A stretch of 64,000 bases of DNA from positions 1 through 64,000 of the IMG/VR virus record IMGVR_UViG_3300032116_000148. The stretch is one strand, 5' to 3'. The notes beneath the pieces are model-generated. The model did not search any database, was not told the origin of the DNA, and worked only from the letters and a program-made list of their open reading frames with translations. Shown piece by piece: positions 6,458 to 63,647 of this stretch (position 1 is its first letter; every line of letters begins with the position of its first letter). A program made the translations under genes and the position numbers. This DNA comes from a virus.

Positions 6458-8025
6458 TTGAATGTTGTAAACTGACCATTAATGAAATTGATGTGTTGAG
6501 CCTTCCCGTCGCCGTGAATGATCACGTGAGATTGCAACCATGAGCTAGGGCCTAGATTGTAATTGACTCTGAGCTTAGTTGAAGTTCCTACTGATAGGGC
6601 TCCGTCTTTTCTACCAGGCGAATGATAGTGTCCTACTACCATCTTCACATTTAACTTTCTAAATTGTAATAGAGAGCCGCGAGAACCGTTAGAACCGATG
6701 TCTCCGTGCTGTCCGAGTTCCCAGCCATTGACCACGAAACTGTCATTACGCCCTAGAGTTCTCATGTTCGGAAACTTCTTGTTGATCAAATGAGGAATGA
6801 TACCGTTAGGAGCCTCACCTCTGAGAAGAAGATAACTGTACTCCATGTACTCTATCGAATTCTTCATCGTGTTGGCTTTTCTCCAATCGGTATTTTTTAA
6901 CCAGCGATCTAAGAAATCGTCGTGGTTACTTCTAACCACTGTCACGTTGTAGTCTTTGAAAGCCTCGAGGCCGGTTAACATTGCTTCTATTTCAGCCTTT
7001 AGACAATTTGTCCCGTCCATTTCTTTTTTGAACTGTGCAAAAGGATCGTTCATCTCGTGATGGTTAATAGACATGCCGTCAAAAACATCGTGGAGAACTA
7101 CGTGATTAGGTTTGATCTTTTTCATCATCTGCAGAGTTCTCTTGATCACCTCTTCGTCGTGGTGACCATAGTGGAGGTCTCCTAGAATTAGTGCAGAAAT
7201 TTCTGATATCTCGTGAATGACTGAAGAGCTATTATTGAGATCATATTGCACTTTGTAATACAAGTCGTGGAAGTTACCATCGACATCGGCGGTGACTTGG
7301 CGTGCAAAAAAGACATCCTCGTCTTTTATTTCTACGATCACAAACCCTAAAGTATGGTGGAACTCTCCTTTCTTGCCAGATTTAGAATCTGTATAGTTCT
7401 TCTCGGTGCAAGCACCAGTCGTCATCATCATTTTAGGCATGCAGTCCTGAAGAACAGGTATCATTTCTAGCTGAACTTTCGGAGAGCCGAAAATGCATGA
7501 ATTGATTCCGCTCATTCCCTGCAGTCCAGTCATTGGATCCACTGCAGTAGGTTGGATCTTTACGTCAGACATGATCCACATGTGTTTATGGATCTCGTGA
7601 CGATTAGCGTCTAAGTACTGCTCTATTCTCTCCGACCAGGTCTCGTAATTTTTGTCGGTAAAAATGGATGTCGGATTTTTATATCTGCCTGCGATAACGT
7701 GTATGCTTGCATTGATCTTTTGTGAGTAAGCCTCGATGTTAGAAATGAAAGCTTCATGAACCGGCGTATCGTTCTGCGCCCAGGTGATGATGAAGCGTTT
7801 TTTCTTCTTGTCGAAGACTCTTTTCCTAGCTTCAATTAGTTGAGGAGATTCTTGATCAGGCTTCTCTTTGATGCCTAATTTAGAAAGCCAAATTTGTACT
7901 GTACGTTCAGACTTACCGATGAATGAGCTTAGCTCTGCCATTCTTTCATCGTAAGTTTTGTCTCTGTCCCAATAGACTTGAGCCATGTGCTGAACGTCAT
8001 GTTCTTGTAGTTCTTCGAATTTCAT
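6454..8025 (-). CDS. HTH plus calcineurin-like phosphoesterase, unknown role
   Basis: 523 residues. An N-terminal helix-turn-helix-like segment (about 25-52, ending SERTVQIWLSKLG) is joined to a central region and a C-terminal metallophosphoesterase domain starting near residue 277. The metal motifs are GDLHYGHHDE, LHDVFDG, VRSNHDDF, GQHGDIGSNG and VVGHYHSP, which make a complete active site. It is distinct from gp47 yet translated directly before it (ATGA overlap). Substrate unknown; a DNA- or RNA-directed nuclease or phosphatase with its own DNA-binding module is the simplest reading. Confidence 0.75.
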   Translation of the reverse strand: MKFEELQEHDVQHMAQVYWDRDKTYDERMAELSSFIGKSERTVQIWLSKLGIKEKPDQESPQLIEARKRVFDKKKKRFIITWAQNDTPVHEAFISNIEAYSQKINASIHVIAGRYKNPTSIFTDKNYETWSERIEQYLDANRHEIHKHMWIMSDVKIQPTAVDPMTGLQGMSGINSCIFGSPKVQLEMIPVLQDCMPKMMMTTGACTEKNYTDSKSGKKGEFHHTLGFVIVEIKDEDVFFARQVTADVDGNFHDLYYKVQYDLNNSSSVIHEISEISALILGDLHYGHHDEEVIKRTLQMMKKIKPNHVVLHDVFDGMSINHHEMNDPFAQFKKEMDGTNCLKAEIEAMLTGLEAFKDYNVTVVRSNHDDFLDRWLKNTDWRKANTMKNSIEYMEYSYLLLRGEAPNGIIPHLINKKFPNMRTLGRNDSFVVNGWELGQHGDIGSNGSRGSLLQFRKLNVKMVVGHYHSPGRKDGALSVGTSTKLRVNYNLGPSSWLQSHVIIHGDGKAQHINFINGQFTTFK

Positions 8026-8028
8026 CCC

Positions 8029-8595
8029 TTAAAATAATTTTCTGATCTTTTTCTTCTCCAAGATGTTAGTAGCCTTGTCAAGTTCGTTGATCAGTTCATT
8101 TTTGTACTTATTGGATAGAGAAGAATAGAACTTGGCTGGAGCAATGTCAAAATAATCTGTCAGATGAGAGAAAATGTCTATTCTTCTGATGTTGATCAGG
8201 TTGGATGAAATGTATCCAAAGACTTCGTTCATCTCTAGCTTGTTCAATTTACGGTGTTTCAAATTTTCATCGATCAAGTTATGAACTGAAAACTTGGAAC
8301 TCTCTATCAAACCGTGTATTTGTTGGAAGAGCAATCTTTCGTGGAGCTTCTCTTCAGGATTTTCATAAGAATGAAAGCTGCTGTCGACTGTGAATGATAC
8401 TCTTGTGTAAGAATCAGGCTCAACATCACCGTAAGTGTTGTCGAAAATCTTATCGACTTTGACTTTCAAAGGAGGTAGAGGCTGACCTTCGCTGTCGACT
8501 TCTCCTACCTCTTCGTGGCTCGTATCCTCTTCGAGGTGTTCGGTGTTCTCGATATCGAGCTCGTCGTCTCTAAATGTGTCCCCTTTTTCTATCAT
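8029..8595 (-). CDS. Acidic protein, possible gp33-like late transcription co-activator
   Basis: 188 residues. The first about 45 are very acidic (EDTSHEEVGEVDSEGQ). Residues about 120-180 are helical: MNEVFGYISSNLINIRRIDI then DYFDIAPAKFYSSLSNKYK and ELINELDKA. This resembles the core of T4 gp33 (FLEENSIPETQFAKFIP, then a helix), the small factor that bridges RNA polymerase and the sliding clamp at late promoters. The resemblance is short and by eye only. The protein is longer than gp33 (112), and its C-terminus KKIRKLF differs from the LDFLL clamp peptide. It overlaps gp41 by 4 bases. It could equally be an unrelated replication accessory factor. Confidence 0.4.
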   Translation of the reverse strand: MIEKGDTFRDDELDIENTEHLEEDTSHEEVGEVDSEGQPLPPLKVKVDKIFDNTYGDVEPDSYTRVSFTVDSSFHSYENPEEKLHERLLFQQIHGLIESSKFSVHNLIDENLKHRKLNKLEMNEVFGYISSNLINIRRIDIFSHLTDYFDIAPAKFYSSLSNKYKNELINELDKATNILEKKKIRKLF

Positions 8596-11479: not shown

Positions 11480-12628
11480 CTAAAAAACAGAAGCAGAATA
11501 AACAAGATTCCGATCTAATTTACCTAGACCCATTGCATCAATGACTCGATTGATAGGATCGACAATGCATCTTTCGAATTGCAGATCATGATCTACGCTA
11601 GGAGCAAATTCCACGGGAAAATCTCCTGGAGGAAAAGCAAAGACGTTACAAGTCTTGTCTTTACTGATGTAGTATTTGATCTTTTCACCGTCCGTCAAAG
11701 TCTTATAACGATTCTTGTATTTGCTGTTATTCAAGAGATAGTTGTAGTAACCTGCAGCTCTGATATGGATGGGACACCCTGAAGCAATCTCAAAATGATC
11801 ATAATCTGAAAGAACGTATTTTCGATAGTTGTTAATCCTAACGTTGAAAGTAATATGTTCAGTATTAGCCAACTTGAATTCTCTTTTCAATTTCTTAAGT
11901 AGATTGACAAGATCACTGAGCTCGACTTTTTCCACAGAAAATATGAATTTGAGAACTTCTTTCAGCTTATTTCTAGCAAAGAGAGGAGTACTTGATTGAA
12001 TGATCTCAAACCCTTTAGCGCTGATTTTTGTAAGAGGCTCATAATGCAGATTAGGATCTTTCCAAACGATGTTCTGCATGTATTTTTTCTTGGCCAACCA
12101 GATGGCATTCTTAGCGATGGATTCCATCTCAAAATCAAGAAAATTATCTGCGTTGAGATCCTTTGCATATTTTTCAAGAACTTTAACATTGAAGCTGGAG
12201 AGACGGTATTCGTACAACTTAAGTACGAATTCTTTTTCATCTCCTTTCCACGTACAGTTTTCTAAAACTTCCTGAAAGCTCAAATAACATGAATCAGTAT
12301 CAATGTAAATGACCATAGGCTTTTTGATCTGACCCGTGATTTCAATTCCCATTTTTTCATGCACCTCTTTGTCTTTGGTCCAGTACTCCTGAAAGTACTT
12401 ATTGATCATCTTTTCAGTATAGAGGATCGCATCCTGACCTTGCAAAGTGATGGTTTCAGCAATATCAACATTGAAAAAATAGAACCACTCGTTACCGAAT
12501 GCTCCGTAGATAGAGTTCAGCATGAGCTTTACGGCCTGTTCAAAGTTATAGTATTTCTGAGCTTCGAACTCTACCTGAGCCAATCTTTCTTGTAATTCTT
12601 CTAGCTTTTCTCTTTTACTCATTGTCAT
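11480..12628 (-). CDS. 43B: DNA polymerase gp43, C-terminal half (palm motif C and thumb)
   Basis: 382 residues holding only the second half of a family B polymerase. A charged helix at the N-terminus (REKLEELQERLAQVEFEAQ) leads straight into motif B KLMLNSIYGAFG (residues 34-45) and then motif C YIDTDSCY near 110; the rest is palm and thumb. The exonuclease and motif A are encoded 4.7 kb upstream in a separate gene. The break corresponds to the tip of the fingers between the two long helices, so two chains could rebuild a whole enzyme. Two ATGs are possible (12628 and 12622); the second overlaps the gp45 stop as ATGAGTAA. It follows the clamp gene directly. Confidence 0.92.
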   Translation of the reverse strand: MTMSKREKLEELQERLAQVEFEAQKYYNFEQAVKLMLNSIYGAFGNEWFYFFNVDIAETITLQGQDAILYTEKMINKYFQEYWTKDKEVHEKMGIEITGQIKKPMVIYIDTDSCYLSFQEVLENCTWKGDEKEFVLKLYEYRLSSFNVKVLEKYAKDLNADNFLDFEMESIAKNAIWLAKKKYMQNIVWKDPNLHYEPLTKISAKGFEIIQSSTPLFARNKLKEVLKFIFSVEKVELSDLVNLLKKLKREFKLANTEHITFNVRINNYRKYVLSDYDHFEIASGCPIHIRAAGYYNYLLNNSKYKNRYKTLTDGEKIKYYISKDKTCNVFAFPPGDFPVEFAPSVDHDLQFERCIVDPINRVIDAMGLGKLDRNLVYSASVF

Positions 12629-17293: not shown

Positions 17294-18706
17294 TCATAGC
17301 TCGTTTTTTATGTTCTTAATTTCTTCTCTTAATTTTTCAGCTTCGACTTGATACTTCTTAGATTCTCCTTTGTAGACCTTTCGATTTGTGTAGAGCTCTG
17401 TCAAGATGTTCTTGAGAATAGAATCATCCTTCTTATAGATGGCACCTGTTACCGATACGATCTTATCAGGAGATTTTTCTTTCAGAGCTTCGACAGGATC
17501 GATCTTCTTGATGAAAGATTCAGGGCTGATATTGATCTGCCTCATGATCGATGGATATAGAGAAGCAAAGTCAAAGCAGGCAACTGCTCTGTGCATTCCT
17601 ACGACAGGAGCTTTTACATAGGCTCCAGTATATTGTGTGTCTTTTCTTGAATCTTCAACGAAGTTTCTGGCCATTACTTTATTCTGAGCTAAGAATTTTC
17701 GGCAGAGCATCGATTCAGTAATTGCGACCGGTGAAGCTGCTTTGTAAATTCCAATCCTACACATAGTAGCAATAGTCAATGCAATATCCATCGTTCTCAA
17801 TTTCTGATGGATGAGATATACGAGACAGGTATCTACCACGTTGTAATAGACGTATTTTGTATATTCTTTTTCGTACAAATCTTGGATGGTACCGCTATAC
17901 TTGATTTTTTTCAATCCAACTACTGCTTCGGCTGTAGAATCGAGAGTAAAGTTTTCTTTGATAAAATCTGAACGATCCCATTTTCGATAGAGTTCCAAGT
18001 AGTCCATCATTCCTACGTGAAGAGGGAGATTTTCCTTTCCCCAGAGTTCTCCGACTGGGCTTGATATTGCTGGATCTATTGCTAGCTTGGAAGCTCGATT
18101 GACAAGATATTTCCAGTCAAAGTTAATGAAGTTCCAACCTGTGATCATTGGAAACTTTGAAACGAAAGATTTGAAGAATGTATAGAGAAGATCGTATTCT
18201 GAATCAAATTTCTTATAGACAAAACTAAATCTCGTATTTGTGTCTTTGAAATAGTCATCGACATCATTTTGAATCTTCTGTTGTTGATCTTGGGGAAGAT
18301 CTCCAGTAGCCAAAACAATCGCTTGTGCGTTTGGTGTAACTATTGCTATGGTAGTGACCGGTGTATCTGCTCTATCGGCTTCAGGGAAGCCGTCCTTGAC
18401 TTCAACCTCGATATCTACAAAATAGGTCTTTGGTAAGTTGTAACCAAATATCTCTTCAGTTTCCTCAAAGGATAGCTCATCGATGAATTGGATGAGAGAG
18501 TATTTGTCTAGTGATTTTGAAGCCGTTCTTTTGACTGGTCGGCCGTCCCAGTTTCTGAATTTATCTGATTTGTTCTTGTCTCTTTCTTCACAGACTTCCC
18601 AGTTGGCGACTTGGCTTACTTTATACTGTTTGTAGTTAGTGTTGCCTTCTTTGTCGTAATATGAAATTGTAAGGTTCGTCCCTCTCTGTTGTACATCAAG
18701 CAGCAT
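17294..18706 (-). CDS. 43A: DNA polymerase gp43, N-terminal half (exonuclease and motif A)
   Basis: 470 residues. The 3'-5' exonuclease is complete: Exo I YFVDIEVEV (D98, E100), Exo II GWNFINFDWKYL near 195, Exo III YNVVDTCLVY near 290. Palm motif A DFASLYPSIM lies near 380. The chain ends in a charged helix (YQVEAEKLREEIKNIKNEL), the first fingers helix, where the intact T4/RB69 enzyme continues. Motifs B and C are on the separate gene at 11480-12628. This is a gene split, not decay: both parts have clean starts and stops and intact motifs. Confidence 0.92.
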   Translation of the reverse strand: MLLDVQQRGTNLTISYYDKEGNTNYKQYKVSQVANWEVCEERDKNKSDKFRNWDGRPVKRTASKSLDKYSLIQFIDELSFEETEEIFGYNLPKTYFVDIEVEVKDGFPEADRADTPVTTIAIVTPNAQAIVLATGDLPQDQQQKIQNDVDDYFKDTNTRFSFVYKKFDSEYDLLYTFFKSFVSKFPMITGWNFINFDWKYLVNRASKLAIDPAISSPVGELWGKENLPLHVGMMDYLELYRKWDRSDFIKENFTLDSTAEAVVGLKKIKYSGTIQDLYEKEYTKYVYYNVVDTCLVYLIHQKLRTMDIALTIATMCRIGIYKAASPVAITESMLCRKFLAQNKVMARNFVEDSRKDTQYTGAYVKAPVVGMHRAVACFDFASLYPSIMRQINISPESFIKKIDPVEALKEKSPDKIVSVTGAIYKKDDSILKNILTELYTNRKVYKGESKKYQVEAEKLREEIKNIKNEL

Positions 18707-55968: not shown

Positions 55969-57792
55969 TTATCCGCCTAGAACTGAAGAAGGGTTAGAAT
56001 CGACCACTGTATTATTGGTAGTCAGTGTTCGGTTTCTTAGCTTCTCAAAATTCTGATTTTGTATCTGATTGTACAAGTCAGCTTTGATGCTCTCCTTAAA
56101 GAAGACGTTCAAAGACGAGAGCTTGTTATCGTCTGGGTATTCTTCGTAATAGTTATTGTTTCTGTCATACCAGTCTCCTCTGATCGCGACTATTTCATCG
56201 TCTACGATTTTAATGTCTCCAAAATCGTCTAATCCAAGACCTGGATCTTCACCTGGCGTCAAAGTTATTCTCTTTGTAGCAAGAAGAGCCTTTTGTTTCG
56301 TCACTGGATCGTAACCTTGGACTTCGACATCGTAATAACCGTTTCTAATAGCTGTCTCATTTTGCTCTGAAACGAAGAAGATATTCACCGAGTCTACGCC
56401 TGGTACTTGTTCTACGAGAGAAACTAAATCCGATCTAGGCACTCTGTCTCTTCTCTTCACGTTTAAGAAGTACTCATTTAATCTAGATCTAATAAGACTT
56501 CTAATCTGAGATTTATCTGCATTATCGAAGAATCTAAGAACTACGTTGATAGCGTATTTTCTAACGTCTATGTCAACTATTCTATTCTCAGCTGTTATTA
56601 ACATTTGACCGCTGTTGTCTAGAAGTTCATAGACCCTTGTCTTTTCAGTTTCAGTAAGAGTAAATTCGTCCAAAGGAAGAGTGAAATAATCTAGATCTGA
56701 CGTCAACTTTGCCTTTATGTCAGGTATTAAAACCAAATAGACTATATTGTCATCATCTATATACTGGTCGTCCTTCGTGTTGTACGCGTTTACAAAAGAA
56801 AAGAAACCATATTTCTTCAGAAAATAGATGTAAGCGTCAGGATTCGCTAGGACAAAAGATTTACTAGCATGCGGAGCAATGATTCTAGTGAAGTCTGGAT
56901 TCTCCGGGGCAGAACCGAAATCTGGCGGCAGAGAAACGAAAATTTGGAAAGCATCGTTCAAATTGACGGTGTTTCCGAATTCATCCGAACCTTCAGTGAT
57001 GAAAGTAAATGTCGCTCCAGCATTGCCTTGAAGATTACCGATAGGACCGCGAGAAATCATGTATTCTACTTCTATCAAACTACCAGCAGGTGGCTTTCTT
57101 CCAAAATTACCGTTTCCGAAATAGACGTCTATGCCTCCACTGATTCCAGTTTTGACTAGGCATCCTCTTTCTTCAGGGCCCATGTCATAGAGAGAATCAT
57201 ATACAGAATACTCGACACCGTTGACTCTTACTCTGGTATAAAAATGATCAGTTGGGTTGTTGGTGATGATAGAGAAGCTCTGCATAGAAGTACCTAAGCC
57301 TGTGAAGCTTTGAGTCTCTATCGAACCTTCTTTGATGGTAAAGTAAAAAGTCTCTTGGCTTGTTTTGTCAATTCTTTTTTCTGATGAATCCAAAAACATC
57401 ATGTAGATCAAGCTGTTATCGAGACACTGTAATTCTGTTTTGTCTCTGATGACTATGTAATTTCCTTGAATTCCTTGTGCGGCATCAGTCTTGGGTACTA
57501 ATGCTATTTTACCGATAGCTGATATTGCTCGGGTTGGATTGTGACCCGTAAGTCTTGAGAGACCGTAGATAGAAGCCACGTTCTTTGCAGTAGCAAAGTT
57601 AAGTTCAGATATTGCGCTCTCGATGTAATAGAAGATTAACTCGCCTATGTTCGAAAGAACAGTAAGAAGCTGACCATAAGGTGAAGCCGGTGTGAAGGCG
57701 TTCTTGGTCTGCCCATAGACTTTCGTCATATAGTTGTAGGCTTGAGTATAGATCCTCAGGGCCGTGATTGCATTTTTACTTAAGAATCCCAT
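55969..57792 (-). CDS. 6: Baseplate wedge protein gp6 (J-like)
   Basis: 607 residues; T4 gp6 has 660. The N-terminal part (NAITALRIYTQAYNYMTKVY, then LSRLTGHNPTRAISAIGKIA) and the central baseplate_J-like core (RRDRVPRSDLVSLVEQVPGV, DSVNIFFVSE) match the family that builds the wedge ring around the hub. The region near 360-460 holds the strand-helix DIDVRKYAINVVLRFFDNAD typical of J proteins. It lies 14 bases after gp25, its usual partner. Confidence 0.75.
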   Translation of the reverse strand: MGFLSKNAITALRIYTQAYNYMTKVYGQTKNAFTPASPYGQLLTVLSNIGELIFYYIESAISELNFATAKNVASIYGLSRLTGHNPTRAISAIGKIALVPKTDAAQGIQGNYIVIRDKTELQCLDNSLIYMMFLDSSEKRIDKTSQETFYFTIKEGSIETQSFTGLGTSMQSFSIITNNPTDHFYTRVRVNGVEYSVYDSLYDMGPEERGCLVKTGISGGIDVYFGNGNFGRKPPAGSLIEVEYMISRGPIGNLQGNAGATFTFITEGSDEFGNTVNLNDAFQIFVSLPPDFGSAPENPDFTRIIAPHASKSFVLANPDAYIYFLKKYGFFSFVNAYNTKDDQYIDDDNIVYLVLIPDIKAKLTSDLDYFTLPLDEFTLTETEKTRVYELLDNSGQMLITAENRIVDIDVRKYAINVVLRFFDNADKSQIRSLIRSRLNEYFLNVKRRDRVPRSDLVSLVEQVPGVDSVNIFFVSEQNETAIRNGYYDVEVQGYDPVTKQKALLATKRITLTPGEDPGLGLDDFGDIKIVDDEIVAIRGDWYDRNNNYYEEYPDDNKLSSLNVFFKESIKADLYNQIQNQNFEKLRNRTLTTNNTVVDSNPSSVLGG

Positions 57793-57806
57793 TCTCTTTT
57801 TCTAAT

Positions 57807-58163
57807 TTAGAATACCACAGTCAGCGCTGGAGCTCCGCTTATATTTATGTTGACCTCAGCCAAATCTCTAGATTCTCCTTCATAAAATGCCACTGACACA
57901 TCCACCGGATACGTCGTGACTAGAGGAAGAAACAGACCTATTTGAGTTCTAATAGTGCTCTCGATCGCTATAGTGTTGAAAGTCAGATCAAAAATGTAGT
58001 CTTCTAGGTTCAGCCCGAAATCTTGAACTCCCATTACTCTAGACTTCGGAGTAGTCAAAAGACACTCTAGCTGTTGTAACAGAATACTGATGTCATCGTT
58101 CAGCTCCAGAGTTGTATCTGAATAACCGATCGAATCTATAGGCTTACAATAGATGTCTGACAT
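57807..58163 (-). CDS. 25: Baseplate wedge protein gp25
   Basis: 118 residues; T4 gp25 has 132. The fold is gp25/lysozyme-like: DISILLQQLECLLTTPKSRV, MGVQDFGLNLEDYIFD, then TIRTQIGLFLPLVTTYPVDV and a final strand pair. The family core motif (EPR in many members) appears as a variant here. gp25 starts the contact between wedge and sheath. An exact TATAAATA element stands 16 bases before the ATG. Confidence 0.82.
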   Translation of the reverse strand: MSDIYCKPIDSIGYSDTTLELNDDISILLQQLECLLTTPKSRVMGVQDFGLNLEDYIFDLTFNTIAIESTIRTQIGLFLPLVTTYPVDVSVAFYEGESRDLAEVNINISGAPALTVVF

Positions 58164-58454: not shown

Positions 58455-59234
58455 TTAGTCTGTGAAGAAGTAGTCTGTTCCTTCGTCTTCTTTGATTTCT
58501 GTTTCTATTTCTTTCAATTCATCAACGCCTTCAGATTTGATATCGGCATAGTTGATTTGAATGTTACCGGGTAGATTGAAAGTGAATGTCCCTAAAATTC
58601 TACCTAGCTGCTTTTTCACCTGTGCCACGACGTATCTGATGAAGATCTCGTCGCTGAAGAGAGCACAATCGCTGATTTTTTCGTAGATGAGGAAAATCAC
58701 GTTGTTTGTAGGGAGTTCTCCCATGAATCTGAATTTCTTGTTCAGATAATTATAGTTATAGGAAATCATCCCTTGCAAGTTCATTCTCGCGATGTCGATG
58801 AAATAAGCATTGATAACATAGAACATCATCTGTTCTGAACCGATACCTGCACCGTAAACGTTATTATAGATGAACTTATCAAGAGCAAAATCCGGATCCA
58901 ATCCTACAAAGCTCATACCTCCGAATCCACCGTCTTCTCCAGCCCAGCCTGATATCTGATAAACCGAATTGACTGCCCATACAGAATCAGGCATCGTAAT
59001 CTCTCCAGTCTTTTTGAAAGTTTCAGTGTTAAATGTGGAAGCCTTGATAGCATAGTACTTCTCTTGAACAGAGTATTCGTAATGCTTATAAAACCACATT
59101 TTAGCGTTGTTAATGATACGTATCACCTCTTCTTTAGGAATAGTGAAAGGTATCTGGCAGAAAGACGTGATCTCCTGCTGTACCTGAGCAACCAGGCTAT
59201 CATAACACGCTTTCTGTTCTGCTGTCATTGCCAT
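58455..59234 (-). CDS. Structural protein, possibly neck or tail adaptor
   Basis: 259 residues. N-terminal helical (EEVIRIINNAKMWFYKHYEY) and a C-terminal part with FIRYVVAQVKKQLGRILGTF, FNLPGNIQINYADIKSEGVD and ELKEIETEIKED. That C-terminal pattern (helix, G-N-F, LPG, helix) recalls a structural protein often seen in T4-like phages of marine hosts, but I cannot name it with certainty. Its neighbours are baseplate genes. Confidence 0.5.
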   Translation of the reverse strand: MAMTAEQKACYDSLVAQVQQEITSFCQIPFTIPKEEVIRIINNAKMWFYKHYEYSVQEKYYAIKASTFNTETFKKTGEITMPDSVWAVNSVYQISGWAGEDGGFGGMSFVGLDPDFALDKFIYNNVYGAGIGSEQMMFYVINAYFIDIARMNLQGMISYNYNYLNKKFRFMGELPTNNVIFLIYEKISDCALFSDEIFIRYVVAQVKKQLGRILGTFTFNLPGNIQINYADIKSEGVDELKEIETEIKEDEGTDYFFTD

Positions 59235-60550: not shown

Positions 60551-60579
60551 AAAAAGGGAGAAGATCGAACCTTCTCCCT
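60551..60579 (-). terminator. Intrinsic terminator after the S1 gene
   Basis: Minus-strand GGGAGAAG, loop GTTCGAT, CTTCTCCC, then TTTTTC: an 8-bp GC-rich stem with T-tract, 32 bases downstream of the S1 stop codon. Confidence 0.85.
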
Positions 60580-60610
60580 CTTGTCTTTCAAGGACATTTT
60601 GTCCTATCGA

Positions 60611-61720
60611 TTAAGCTTTTCGAAGAACTATCTTCCTAGAAGCCTGTTCGATTTTACTAATGATAACTTCTACGTCCTCACCTTCTTTGAAGTCAGAGTC
60701 TTTAGGGAGTTGAGAAGAATGCATCAATCCAGAAATACCTTTTTCGATCTCTACAAAGACGCCATAGTTAGTGATTTTGACAACCTGTCCTATGACGAGC
60801 TGCTCTGGAGAAAATCTGTTCTGGATGTCATCCCATGGAGAGACTTCTTTTTCTTTCTCAGTCAAAAGTATTTTGCTGTCTGAGATGATCTGTTTAATTC
60901 TGAATTCTACAGATCGACCTGGTTTGATCAAACCAGCTTTGAAGTCTTCTTCGCTCTTCTCTATTTCAACTACTGGAATTAGACCGGTTAAACAATCTTC
61001 AAATTCTACGAAGATACCAGCACCGCTGGTTCCTGTCACGAAACCTGTTCTCCAAGAATCTATCGTCTCTGTTACTTTTTCGATCTTAGAAGGGATCATC
61101 GTCTTCAGATAGTCTCGGTGAGAAACTACAGGGATGTCTCTTTCTTTCGAATAGTTGACAGGCACTACGATGATCTCTTTACCTAAGAGACTTGCGAAGT
61201 CTACAAGCTTGTTCATTCCGGCTAAAGAACCAGGCATGAAACATTTGATCACATCAATCTCTACGAAGTAACCTCCGTGGATGAGTTCGGTGACTTTGGC
61301 TCTGTAACCTACTTTTTGACCGATAGAATCTACGATCTCTTGCATCTTACGCTTGTTGATAGCATCAGTGAAGCTCGCTTCGTAGTTACCGTTATGGCCG
61401 AATTTTAATTTAACTGGAATGTGATCGCCTACTCTGAGATCTTCTAAACCTCTCTCTTTTCTCATGTTCATGTAAGCGTCTTGCTTACCGTCCAAGCTGA
61501 GAATCACATGATCAGGTCTCATCGAGATGACCTCGAGCGTTCTGATTTCGTTTTCTTGTGGTGGTTCTTTGATCTCTAATCCCTCATAGAATCTGAGGAG
61601 TTCAAGCACGTTAGAATCCTGGGAAAGGATTTTTGTTCCTCTTGGAAGATCGACCTCTACTGTTACTGTGCTGAAGGGATCTTGGTCGTCTTGTCGGAAC
61701 GTTACTTTTTGTTTGGGCAT
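60611..61720 (-). CDS. Ribosomal protein S1 homologue (four S1 domains)
   Basis: 369 residues. Four OB-fold S1 domains are visible: near 60-120 (RPDHVILSLDGKQDAYMNMR, divergent), 135-200 (VTELIHGGYFVEIDVIKCFM), 220-290 (GFVTGTSGAGIFVEFEDCLT) and 308-369 (GQVVKITNYGVFVEIEKGIS, then LMHSSQL). Bacterial S1 has six. Domains 3 and 4 keep the aromatic and glycine positions for RNA binding. It could bind the ribosome or phage mRNA, steering translation to A-rich phage leaders, or act in phage RNA metabolism. A terminator follows it. Confidence 0.85.
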   Translation of the reverse strand: MPKQKVTFRQDDQDPFSTVTVEVDLPRGTKILSQDSNVLELLRFYEGLEIKEPPQENEIRTLEVISMRPDHVILSLDGKQDAYMNMRKERGLEDLRVGDHIPVKLKFGHNGNYEASFTDAINKRKMQEIVDSIGQKVGYRAKVTELIHGGYFVEIDVIKCFMPGSLAGMNKLVDFASLLGKEIIVVPVNYSKERDIPVVSHRDYLKTMIPSKIEKVTETIDSWRTGFVTGTSGAGIFVEFEDCLTGLIPVVEIEKSEEDFKAGLIKPGRSVEFRIKQIISDSKILLTEKEKEVSPWDDIQNRFSPEQLVIGQVVKITNYGVFVEIEKGISGLMHSSQLPKDSDFKEGEDVEVIISKIEQASRKIVLRKA

Positions 61721-61794
61721 TAATTTTTGAGATTAAAAGGTGAATGAAATAATGAATGTGTCTAAATAATATATCTAAGTCAGAAATGTTAGCG

Positions 61795-62853
61795 TCAGAA
61801 TTTTAATAGAGATTTGATCACGGTAGGCAAAAAAGTTATTGCAAATGTTAGACTGCATGCAATCAGACCAAAAATCGGAGCTACCGCTTGAAAAACTTTA
61901 GAAGCAAATTTCTTCAAATCTATTTTTTTGAGAGAAAAAACGAGATTCAAAAAGTTTTTTATGTCTGCTTTGACTTTTGCCGCTGACTCTTTTACCTTAG
62001 AAAACTTTTTAGCCAGAGCGATGAGAATAGGCTCTAGAGCTTTTTTCAAAAGATCTAAAAAAAGCTTAACTGGATTTTTTATCAAATTGCTTAAGAGCTC
62101 AAGCAGCTTTTTCACAGGATTCTTCAGAGCATCGATAGCAAGTTTGAAAGTACTTAAAATGAAATCTATTCCAGTTTGAACGAAACTGAGCAGCAACGTT
62201 ATCTGTTTTATCACCCATTCAGGGCCCTTCGCGATTTCCTTGATGATCTCAGCTACATAAGCTTTGGCGTCTTGTAGTTCTTTCTCAGCTGCAGCTATTG
62301 CTTCATTTCCGCTTTGCTTAGCTTTTGCTACTTTAGCCGTCGCTTCTGACAATATCTCTTGAGCTCTTGTTTGTGATTCTGATCCGTCGCCTTTGACTAA
62401 TTTTTTGAGAGCTTTCTTTCTTTCAGCATCTTTAATGTCGTCAATTTTACCCGATAGATTTATTTTTAGAGGACCTATCGGTAAGGTGAGAGGAAGTGCG
62501 AATTTTTTAAGCGGCTCTACGATTTTTTCAACTACAAATTGGATTATGTTAGAAACTGCTTTCTGTATCTCTTGAATGAGCTCATTGATCTTTTTCACGA
62601 TCTCGGCCAACTTCGGAGGATCTGTAAGAGCAGCTTTTACTCTTTTGGCCAGATCTACGAGTTTAGCATAAGGTGACAACGCAGTAGCGTAAATTTTATC
62701 AAAGAATTCTACGATGGTAAAGATAAGATTCTCTAATCCGGGCTCGTTCTTTCTCTTAGGATCGATTTTTACTTTCAACCCTTTATCGTTGAGACACTTT
62801 TCAAACTGCTTGATTGCAGTGTCTATTCCTTTCGTATCTAGAAATTCTGCCAT
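61795..62853 (-). CDS. Long amphipathic helical protein, unrecognised
   Basis: 352 residues, almost all helix, rich in Lys, Ala, Leu and Ile. Long amphipathic stretches such as INELIQEIQKAVSNIIQFVV and PVKKLLELLSNLIKNPVKLF repeat, and the C-terminus SLTFAITFLPTVIKSLLKF is hydrophobic enough to enter a membrane. It overlaps the gp5-like gene by one base. Candidates are a tail tape-measure-like or hub-associated membrane-active protein injected during infection. Confidence 0.5.
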   Translation of the reverse strand: MAEFLDTKGIDTAIKQFEKCLNDKGLKVKIDPKRKNEPGLENLIFTIVEFFDKIYATALSPYAKLVDLAKRVKAALTDPPKLAEIVKKINELIQEIQKAVSNIIQFVVEKIVEPLKKFALPLTLPIGPLKINLSGKIDDIKDAERKKALKKLVKGDGSESQTRAQEILSEATAKVAKAKQSGNEAIAAAEKELQDAKAYVAEIIKEIAKGPEWVIKQITLLLSFVQTGIDFILSTFKLAIDALKNPVKKLLELLSNLIKNPVKLFLDLLKKALEPILIALAKKFSKVKESAAKVKADIKNFLNLVFSLKKIDLKKFASKVFQAVAPIFGLIACSLTFAITFLPTVIKSLLKF

Positions 62854-63647
62854 TATTCAGTTTTAGACACCTTGCTCAGCTCCAATCCTGAAAGAGGAAT
62901 GATCGGTGGCCCTGTCGGAGCTCCGAGGTTACCGAGGTGGGTGTGATTATTAAATAGTTTCTGAAAAGTATTGCCCTTAATTACAGCTTCAGCAGCATTA
63001 GGTCCTAGCTCGACATTAGGTGAGCTTAGATGAGCTTTTTGAGAAGCCTTTACTGTGGCGTTCTTACATTCTATATTGACGTCTGTTCTCACTTTGATTG
63101 TCAGATTACCGTCTTTTGTCAAAATGATGACGTCGCCTCCTGCATTTTTTACCTCTATCGATTCATCAGGTTTGATGTTGATCGTGTTTTTCTTGTAGTC
63201 GAGCATCAATCCTTTGCTCTCAGTAAAGAACACTTTGACAGCCCCTTCTGTAACAGTATCGTAGATTAAAGAATGAGCATTGGTGTAGCTGTCTTTTATT
63301 TCTGCTGTGAGTTCTTCTGAGAGGTGAGCCAATGCACTGTATTCTGGGTAGTATGGGTTACCGTTGTCGAAAGAGACGTTCACGACAGATCCAGTCTTAG
63401 GCACTGAAAAAGATCCTGAACCGCTTGAACTTCCGCCGGAAAAATAACCTCTAGGAAAAGCCCATGGAATTGAATCATCAGGGATTACGTATCTGCTAGC
63501 CGGATCATAAGGATTTTCTCTCGTGTCAAACTTACCAAAGACTCTAACGCGTACTCTGCCTAGAAGAAGAGGATCAGAATTATCTACCACTTCTCCCAGC
63601 CAAGATGTACCGACTAGGTTATCACTTATGCTATCTAAGTTTATCAT
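62853..63647 (-). CDS. 5: Baseplate hub/spike protein, gp5-like (no lysozyme domain)
   Basis: 264 residues. The N-terminal OB-fold has WLGEVVDNSDPLLLGRVRVR and VFGKFDTRENPYD, followed by IPWAFPRG and the GSVVNVSFDNGNPYYPEYSA strand pair typical of gp5/VgrG. The C-terminal part is a repetitive beta-helix (INIKPDESIEVKNAGGDVII, LTIKVRTDVNIECKN). The lysozyme domain of T4 gp5 is absent, so wall digestion must come from elsewhere. It forms the membrane-puncturing spike. Confidence 0.8.
   Translation of the reverse strand: MINLDSISDNLVGTSWLGEVVDNSDPLLLGRVRVRVFGKFDTRENPYDPASRYVIPDDSIPWAFPRGYFSGGSSSGSGSFSVPKTGSVVNVSFDNGNPYYPEYSALAHLSEELTAEIKDSYTNAHSLIYDTVTEGAVKVFFTESKGLMLDYKKNTINIKPDESIEVKNAGGDVIILTKDGNLTIKVRTDVNIECKNATVKASQKAHLSSPNVELGPNAAEAVIKGNTFQKLFNNHTHLGNLGAPTGPPIIPLSGLELSKVSKTE

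Follow-up and report, generated by a model that had tools for sequence, protein, structure and literature searches.

The window examined here, a stretch of 64,000 nucleotides of viral DNA belonging to a contig fragment of 68,860 bases, carries a gene for a homologue of ribosomal protein bS1 among genes for baseplate and neck proteins (Table 1). This gene stands apart from its neighbours, from which it is separated by gaps of 74 nt and 92 nt, and the terminator hairpin sits inside the 92-nt gap located 3' of S1, in agreement with the separate unit and strong terminator reported in a preliminary description of this DNA. A structured autoregulatory leader such as that of E. coli rpsA was ruled out, the leader in the window being unstructured, and no Rfam match was obtained anywhere in the window.

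Table 1. Features of the S1 locus and related sites. Positions are those of the window unless a contig is named.
Feature	Position	Strand	Basis or remark
Phage bS1-like gene, 369 aa, bS1 domains 1-4 (S1/OB), without D5-D6	60611..61720	(-)	Profile, PDB, Pfam and AF2 matches
N-terminal beta-hairpin (aa 3-24) and short helix (aa 38-45), at the site of the E. coli bS1 uS2-binding helix; Tyr45 aligns with Phe9	61586..61714	(-)	AF2 secondary structure, residue mapping
OB1/D1; Lys79 corresponds to Lys43 of E. coli bS1 (uS2 zinc pocket)	61373..61546	(-)	AF2, residue mapping
OB2/D2; Tyr151 and Phe161 align with mRNA-gripping Phe120 and Phe130; clade-specific FMPG(S/N)	61121..61306	(-)	AF2, residue mapping
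OB3/D3	60860..61051	(-)	AF2, residue comparison
OB4/D4 with S1-domain set Tyr319/Phe322/His334	60617..60799	(-)	Pfam, AF2, residue comparison
Intrinsic terminator downstream of S1, 14-bp stem, T tail	60552..60582	(-)	Shuffle z = -3.56
A/T-rich unstructured S1 leader, 74 nt, no SD; weak late-promoter-like GATATATTATT at 61765-61775	61721..61794	(-)	Folding z = 0.86
gp5-like baseplate hub gene, conserved upstream neighbour	62853..63647	(-)	PHROG; 71/78 loci
Conserved downstream neighbour, 426 aa	59238..60518	(-)	Locus comparison
Neck/head-tail connector protein, conserved neighbour	58455..59234	(-)	PHROG 211; 'neck protein' in PTm1, MA9V-2
Baseplate wedge genes, conserved neighbours: gp25-like (57807-58163), gp6-like (55969-57792)	55969..58163	(-)	PHROG, locus comparison
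Apparently split family B DNA polymerase ORFs	17294-18706 and 11480-12628	(-)	Intervening genes include that for the ribonucleotide reductase large subunit
Inverted-repeat sites at the S1 stop in related contigs	L020:9159, L034:9164, L035:9158, L043:9173, L051:9191, L060:9160, L065:3002		

The 369-aa product matches the profile TIGR00717 (1.1e-36) over positions 12-340 of 516, which correspond to bS1 domains D1-D4 with their order kept, and it also matches bS1 chains of the PDB (6.6e-26) and the Pfam S1 family (2.8e-16). Only two S1 repeats pass Pfam by themselves, while the AF2 model, built with 25 family members (mean pLDDT 86, pTM 0.55), contains four OB domains with helices between them, preceded by an N-terminal beta-hairpin and a short helix; the four S1 domains previously announced are recovered by both profile and model. 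The best PDB fold match for this model is the bS1 of a 30S mRNA delivery complex (E 7.6e-26). The protein, which lacks D5-D6, scores 126 bits against the 577 required by the curated rpsA cut-off, and in 20 of 61 genomes real Bacteroidota bS1s likewise fall under it. The homology of the window protein to bS1 is genuine, beyond the mere presence of S1 motifs. With the bS1 (rpsA) of Bacteroidota and E. coli it has in common the D1-D4 order, Lys43, Phe130 and the OB4 RNA-binding residues; however, the bacterial proteins are about 557-650 aa long, and the window S1 differs from them in its missing D5-D6, in FMPG(S/N) replacing FLPGS and in its N-terminal beta-hairpin.

In E. coli bS1, docking on uS2 relies on Phe5, Phe9 and Lys43, and mRNA is held in OB2 by Lys117, Phe120 and Phe130, OB1-OB2 being chiefly ribosome-binding; on the 30S subunit, OB1 is contacted by bS21 (PMC10123108). 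Among 23 phage homologues, the Lys43 equivalent is K or R in 21 and that of Phe9 is Tyr in 21, this Tyr being also found in 25 of 39 Bacteroidota bS1s. The Phe5 equivalent is mostly hydrophobic and non-aromatic in phage S1s, and non-aromatic too in 30 of the 39 Bacteroidota proteins. In OB2, the Phe120 equivalent is aromatic (Tyr/Phe) and the Phe130 equivalent is Phe in all 23 homologues; that of Lys117 is mostly His, and that of Phe79 has not been retained. The OB3 His is replaced by Pro in 15/23 phage S1s, and the OB4 aromatic pair (Tyr or Phe, then Phe; Leu in four) and His are retained in most family members. Comparison with host S1 domains, a check suggested in the preliminary description, shows that phage S1 keeps the domain order, together with several of the residues used by E. 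coli bS1 for mRNA grip and, apparently, several of those used for uS2 docking.

Relatives of the window S1 were found in at least 595 IMG/VR contigs by a two-pattern scan, whereas none turned up when 84,980 prokaryote species genomes were scanned for the signature FMP(G/N)(S/T)L(A/G)GxN, a one-pattern search that more diverged prophage copies could escape. An unrooted tree was built with 23 phage representatives, 39 Bacteroidota bS1s and six others, the non-Bacteroidota sample being small. All 23 phage representatives, Lak included, were monophyletic with 100/100 support and separate from the Bacteroidota bS1s and the six others, the window S1 sharing this clade (100/100) with LR756500, LR756502, LR756504, LR756501, LR745206 and Lak-A2. 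Records LR756500-LR756504 and LR745206 are presumably the huge-phage genomes of Al-Shayeb et al. 2020, with which their sizes (735 kb) are consistent. The tree places the window S1 in one old phage-only lineage, and its long stem branches rule out a recent capture from the host. Cell contamination was also ruled out, S1 lying amid phage baseplate and neck genes in 78 usable loci, and is likewise opposed by the pattern scan of genome contigs, which returned no relative. In the window's nearest clade, phage S1 is under strong purifying selection, with dN/dS values of 0.04-0.10 between close pairs.

The N-terminus varies within the family. The hairpin motif is present in the window's clade and absent from L078, L085 and the 540-735 kb huge phages. 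Near its N-terminus, Lak S1 (L010 = Lak-A2, 7449-8558) keeps a Bacteroidota-bS1-like FNWxxYE segment, and the S1 of L085 (8001-9176) has FDWxAYE, where most of the family has the beta-hairpin instead; these segments could point to an origin from Bacteroidota bS1. At its C-terminus, Lak S1 has an acidic tail in which D4 is not recognisable, even when recoded TAG is read through.

The nearest matches of the core proteins of the window belong to uncultured huge phages, Prevotella Lak phages, phages of Tenacibaculum, Chryseobacterium and Flavobacterium, and also PAU (listed under Sphingomonas), and between its ribonucleotide reductase genes and those of the Tenacibaculum phage pT24 the identity is 58-70%. 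These core proteins point to a large T4-like phage, with Bacteroidota as its most likely hosts. The family B DNA polymerase of the window is apparently split, its exonuclease side (470 aa) and polymerase side (382 aa) being about 4.7 kb apart.

The position of S1 between baseplate and neck genes is fixed in the window's nearest clade. Among the 78 loci in which S1 gave a usable hit, 71-77 retain the gene order hub - S1 - 426-aa gene - neck - gp25 - gp6, missing neighbours mostly reflecting contig ends; the related contigs are fragments, and absence counts are lower bounds. Outside this clade, S1 is found beside large fibre-like genes in huge phages LR756502 and LR745206, behind a tail-tube homologue in the 636-735 kb phages LR756504 and LR756501, and, in Lak, close to the gene of a DnaB helicase homologue, at a distance of about 2 kb. 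As for the 426-aa neighbour, its relatives among the phage records searched occur only in uncultured huge phages, and in the 630-735 kb genomes it is encoded far from S1; pT24 gene 175 was compared with it and ruled out as a homologue.

Regarding expression, the motif ATATATAA was found in 32 of 67 pooled leaders of S1-positive viral contigs (L016-L085), against 3.1 expected, mostly 19-38 nt ahead of the start codon, and it is present in the leader of 12/17 related S1 genes. The same script recovered the known T4 late promoter TATAAATA (9/26 vs 0.5) as a control, and ATATATAA looks like a late promoter of this phage clade, analogous to that of T4. Late expression of S1 is likely in the family; the window S1 has just a weak copy of the motif, farther upstream than in its relatives, and this promoter-like motif, together with the location of the gene, suggests that it would also be expressed late in the window phage. 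In 7/17 representative contigs, an inverted repeat lies just 3' of the S1 stop, with the ATATATAA of the next gene in its loop. Such motif-enclosing hairpins number 10 among 70 motifs, vs 1.65 in shuffled flanks, 7 of the 10 being located 16-27 nt behind S1, and the post-S1 hairpin is possibly an S1 terminator carrying the next promoter in its loop.

The A-rich leaders devoid of Shine-Dalgarno (SD) sites described previously were confirmed by the statistics of leader composition run on the window, for which gene starts were taken from one simple longest-ORF caller. An SD core (4 nt, about -18 to -4) precedes 0/51 window genes, compared with 5% in shuffles, the anti-SD energy of the starts equals that of shuffles, and the leaders (-20..-1) contain 49% A vs 33% in coding sequence. 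The script has the power to detect SD sites, since it found them in T4 (59% vs 11%). The pooled S1-positive contigs are SD-poor (6% vs 4%), and one huge phage (L009) shows a slight SD excess (13% vs 7%). However, in S1-less pT24 the SD core was found in 0/59 genes, and its A peaks are similar to those of the window. It is known that Bacteroidota ribosomes do not read SD, and that F. johnsoniae bS1 gives approximately 2-fold more initiation on SD-less mRNA in vitro (PMC9976891). Taking into account that pT24 is equally SD-less, the absence of SD tracks Bacteroidota hosts and does not indicate that S1 is acting, an argument in which pT24 is the single S1-less phage. A-rich SD-less starts are general in phages of Bacteroidota, this S1-less one included, and SD absence was discarded as a feature marking phages with S1. 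This takes weight from the correlation argued by Al-Shayeb et al. and from that of the preliminary description, in which missing SD sites had been taken as evidence for S1 function; most simply, they are a host trait and cannot be used in that way.

A second ribosomal protein accompanies S1 in several of these phages. bS21 is co-encoded in 4/6 complete S1 huge phages vs 0/5 S1-less relatives (Fisher p=0.06, small sample), and is found at or near cut-off, in one case below it, in 9 of 32 S1 contig fragments. With S1-positive records as control, no S1 was found by profile or Pfam in pT24, PTm1, MA9V-2, MaF61 or PAU, and T4 has no S1 homologue. Phage bS21 is, like bS1, a 30S-platform ribosomal protein encoded by Bacteroidota phages, with late expression reported, although it is a different protein, whose incorporation into E. 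coli ribosomes has been demonstrated (Mizuno 2019, PMC6375957; Chen 2022, PMC9723584).

The homology, domain make-up, kept residues, conservation and locus of phage S1 are established, and its bS1 homology, kept residues and selection, together with the frequent bS21, fit a ribosome-directed role. From the sequence we infer ribosome docking, exchange with host bS1 and a preference for phage mRNA, and we consider it rather probable that a late-expressed bS1 paralogue docks on the host 30S subunit and loads phage mRNAs. S1 would be a near-core gene of large T4-like Bacteroidota phages, encoding a divergent bS1 paralogue cut down to the ribosome-docking half (OB1-OB2) and the first two mRNA-binding domains (OB3-OB4), and would be made late, together with the virion genes. 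OB1 would dock at the bS1 site of host uS2, beside or replacing loosely bound host bS1, and OB2-OB4 would catch the short A-rich unstructured phage leaders and pass them to the 30S subunit. Against this proposal, it has to be noted that Phe5 is non-aromatic, Phe79 lost, Lys117 mostly His and the OB3 His mostly Pro; that the score is far under the curated rpsA cut-off; that the fixed locus among baseplate genes would equally suit a virion role; and that the bS21 contrast is small (p=0.06).

Because the S1 locus lies among tail genes, the main rival is a virion or assembly protein, in which bS1 domains would have been recruited to the baseplate or neck, or to an assembly factor, with loss of ribosome action. 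OB folds are frequent in baseplates; in the window's clade S1 is invariably placed among the hub, neck and wedge genes, and in the two 636-735 kb phages it follows a tail-tube homologue. Nevertheless, this role appears rather unlikely, taking into account that the RNA-binding and docking residues are retained, that Lak S1 is placed near the helicase homologue instead, that the tail-bearing relatives pT24, PTm1, MA9V-2, MaF61 and PAU, as well as T4, dispense with S1, and that the homology is to full bS1 and not to known virion OB proteins; the window S1 has no PHROG match.

The RNA-binding set retained in OB4 would also suit an RNA factor acting off the ribosome, which could protect, unwind or anneal late phage mRNAs, or help in transcription, RNA decay or recombination. 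Host S1 is reported to have such extra-ribosomal roles, with RegB, Qbeta replicase and lambda beta (PMC13157829), and Al-Shayeb et al. admit an action 'on or off the ribosome' (PMC7162821); however, OB1-OB2, with the lysine of the uS2 pocket, are no less conserved than the RNA domains, and we regard this possibility as unlikely. The absence of D5-D6 and the altered OB2 and OB3 positions (His for Lys117, Pro for the OB3 His) could in turn reflect a competitor or decoy that displaces host bS1 and initiates poorly, so that host translation would be shut off and phage mRNAs would not be served. This is very improbable, the late structural locus and the promoter-like motif suiting the synthesis of late messages better than an early host shut-off.

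S1 was already reported from huge phages by Al-Shayeb et al. 2020, who related it to missing SD sites and proposed a hijacking of ribosomes, leaving its role open (PMC7162821). The interpretation of the preliminary description, whose S1-SD link had already been published, gains from the true bS1 homology, the selection, the residues and bS21, and loses its SD argument. The window protein is a new member of this family: the huge-phage rpS1 proteins are of the same family and lineage, that of LR756500, a phage with syntenic baseplate genes, being 43% identical, but the window is another phage, 43% being the highest identity of its S1 to any of them. Two other relatives known by annotation, from Virus NIOZ-UU157 (A0A7S9STL2, 42% identity) and an uncultured marine phage (A0A8D9CG03, 27%), have 373-380 aa and full-length fold matches. 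Microcystis phage PhiMa05 likewise encodes a bS1, reported as acquired with other ribosomal proteins from a Vampirovibrio-like host (PMC13157829); this bS1 had no match in the phage collection searched. Earlier, rpsA was noted in viromes by Roux et al. 2013, who called for the genomic context of viral S1 (PMC3877843), and S1 domains were omitted as ambiguous by Mizuno et al. 2019 (PMC6375957). What the present analysis adds is the single phage lineage, the fixed locus, the selection, the conservation of residues, the comparison of bS21 between phages with and without S1, and the finding that SD absence is confounded with the host.

It is possible, although this is put forward tentatively, that one ancient four-domain bS1 lineage, near-core in giant Bacteroidota phages, rebuilds the mRNA-docking platform of the host 30S subunit late in infection together with phage bS21; if true, this would mean a specialised phage-made ribosome, in bacteria of a phylum in which ribosomes take no account of SD sequences. 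S1 is the mRNA-catching arm of the ribosome and, since it is kept in hundreds of related viruses, it probably helps viral messages onto host ribosomes late in infection. With one phage-only lineage, a fixed locus, strong selection and docking residues that appear to be kept, the role of viral S1 can be put to a concrete test.
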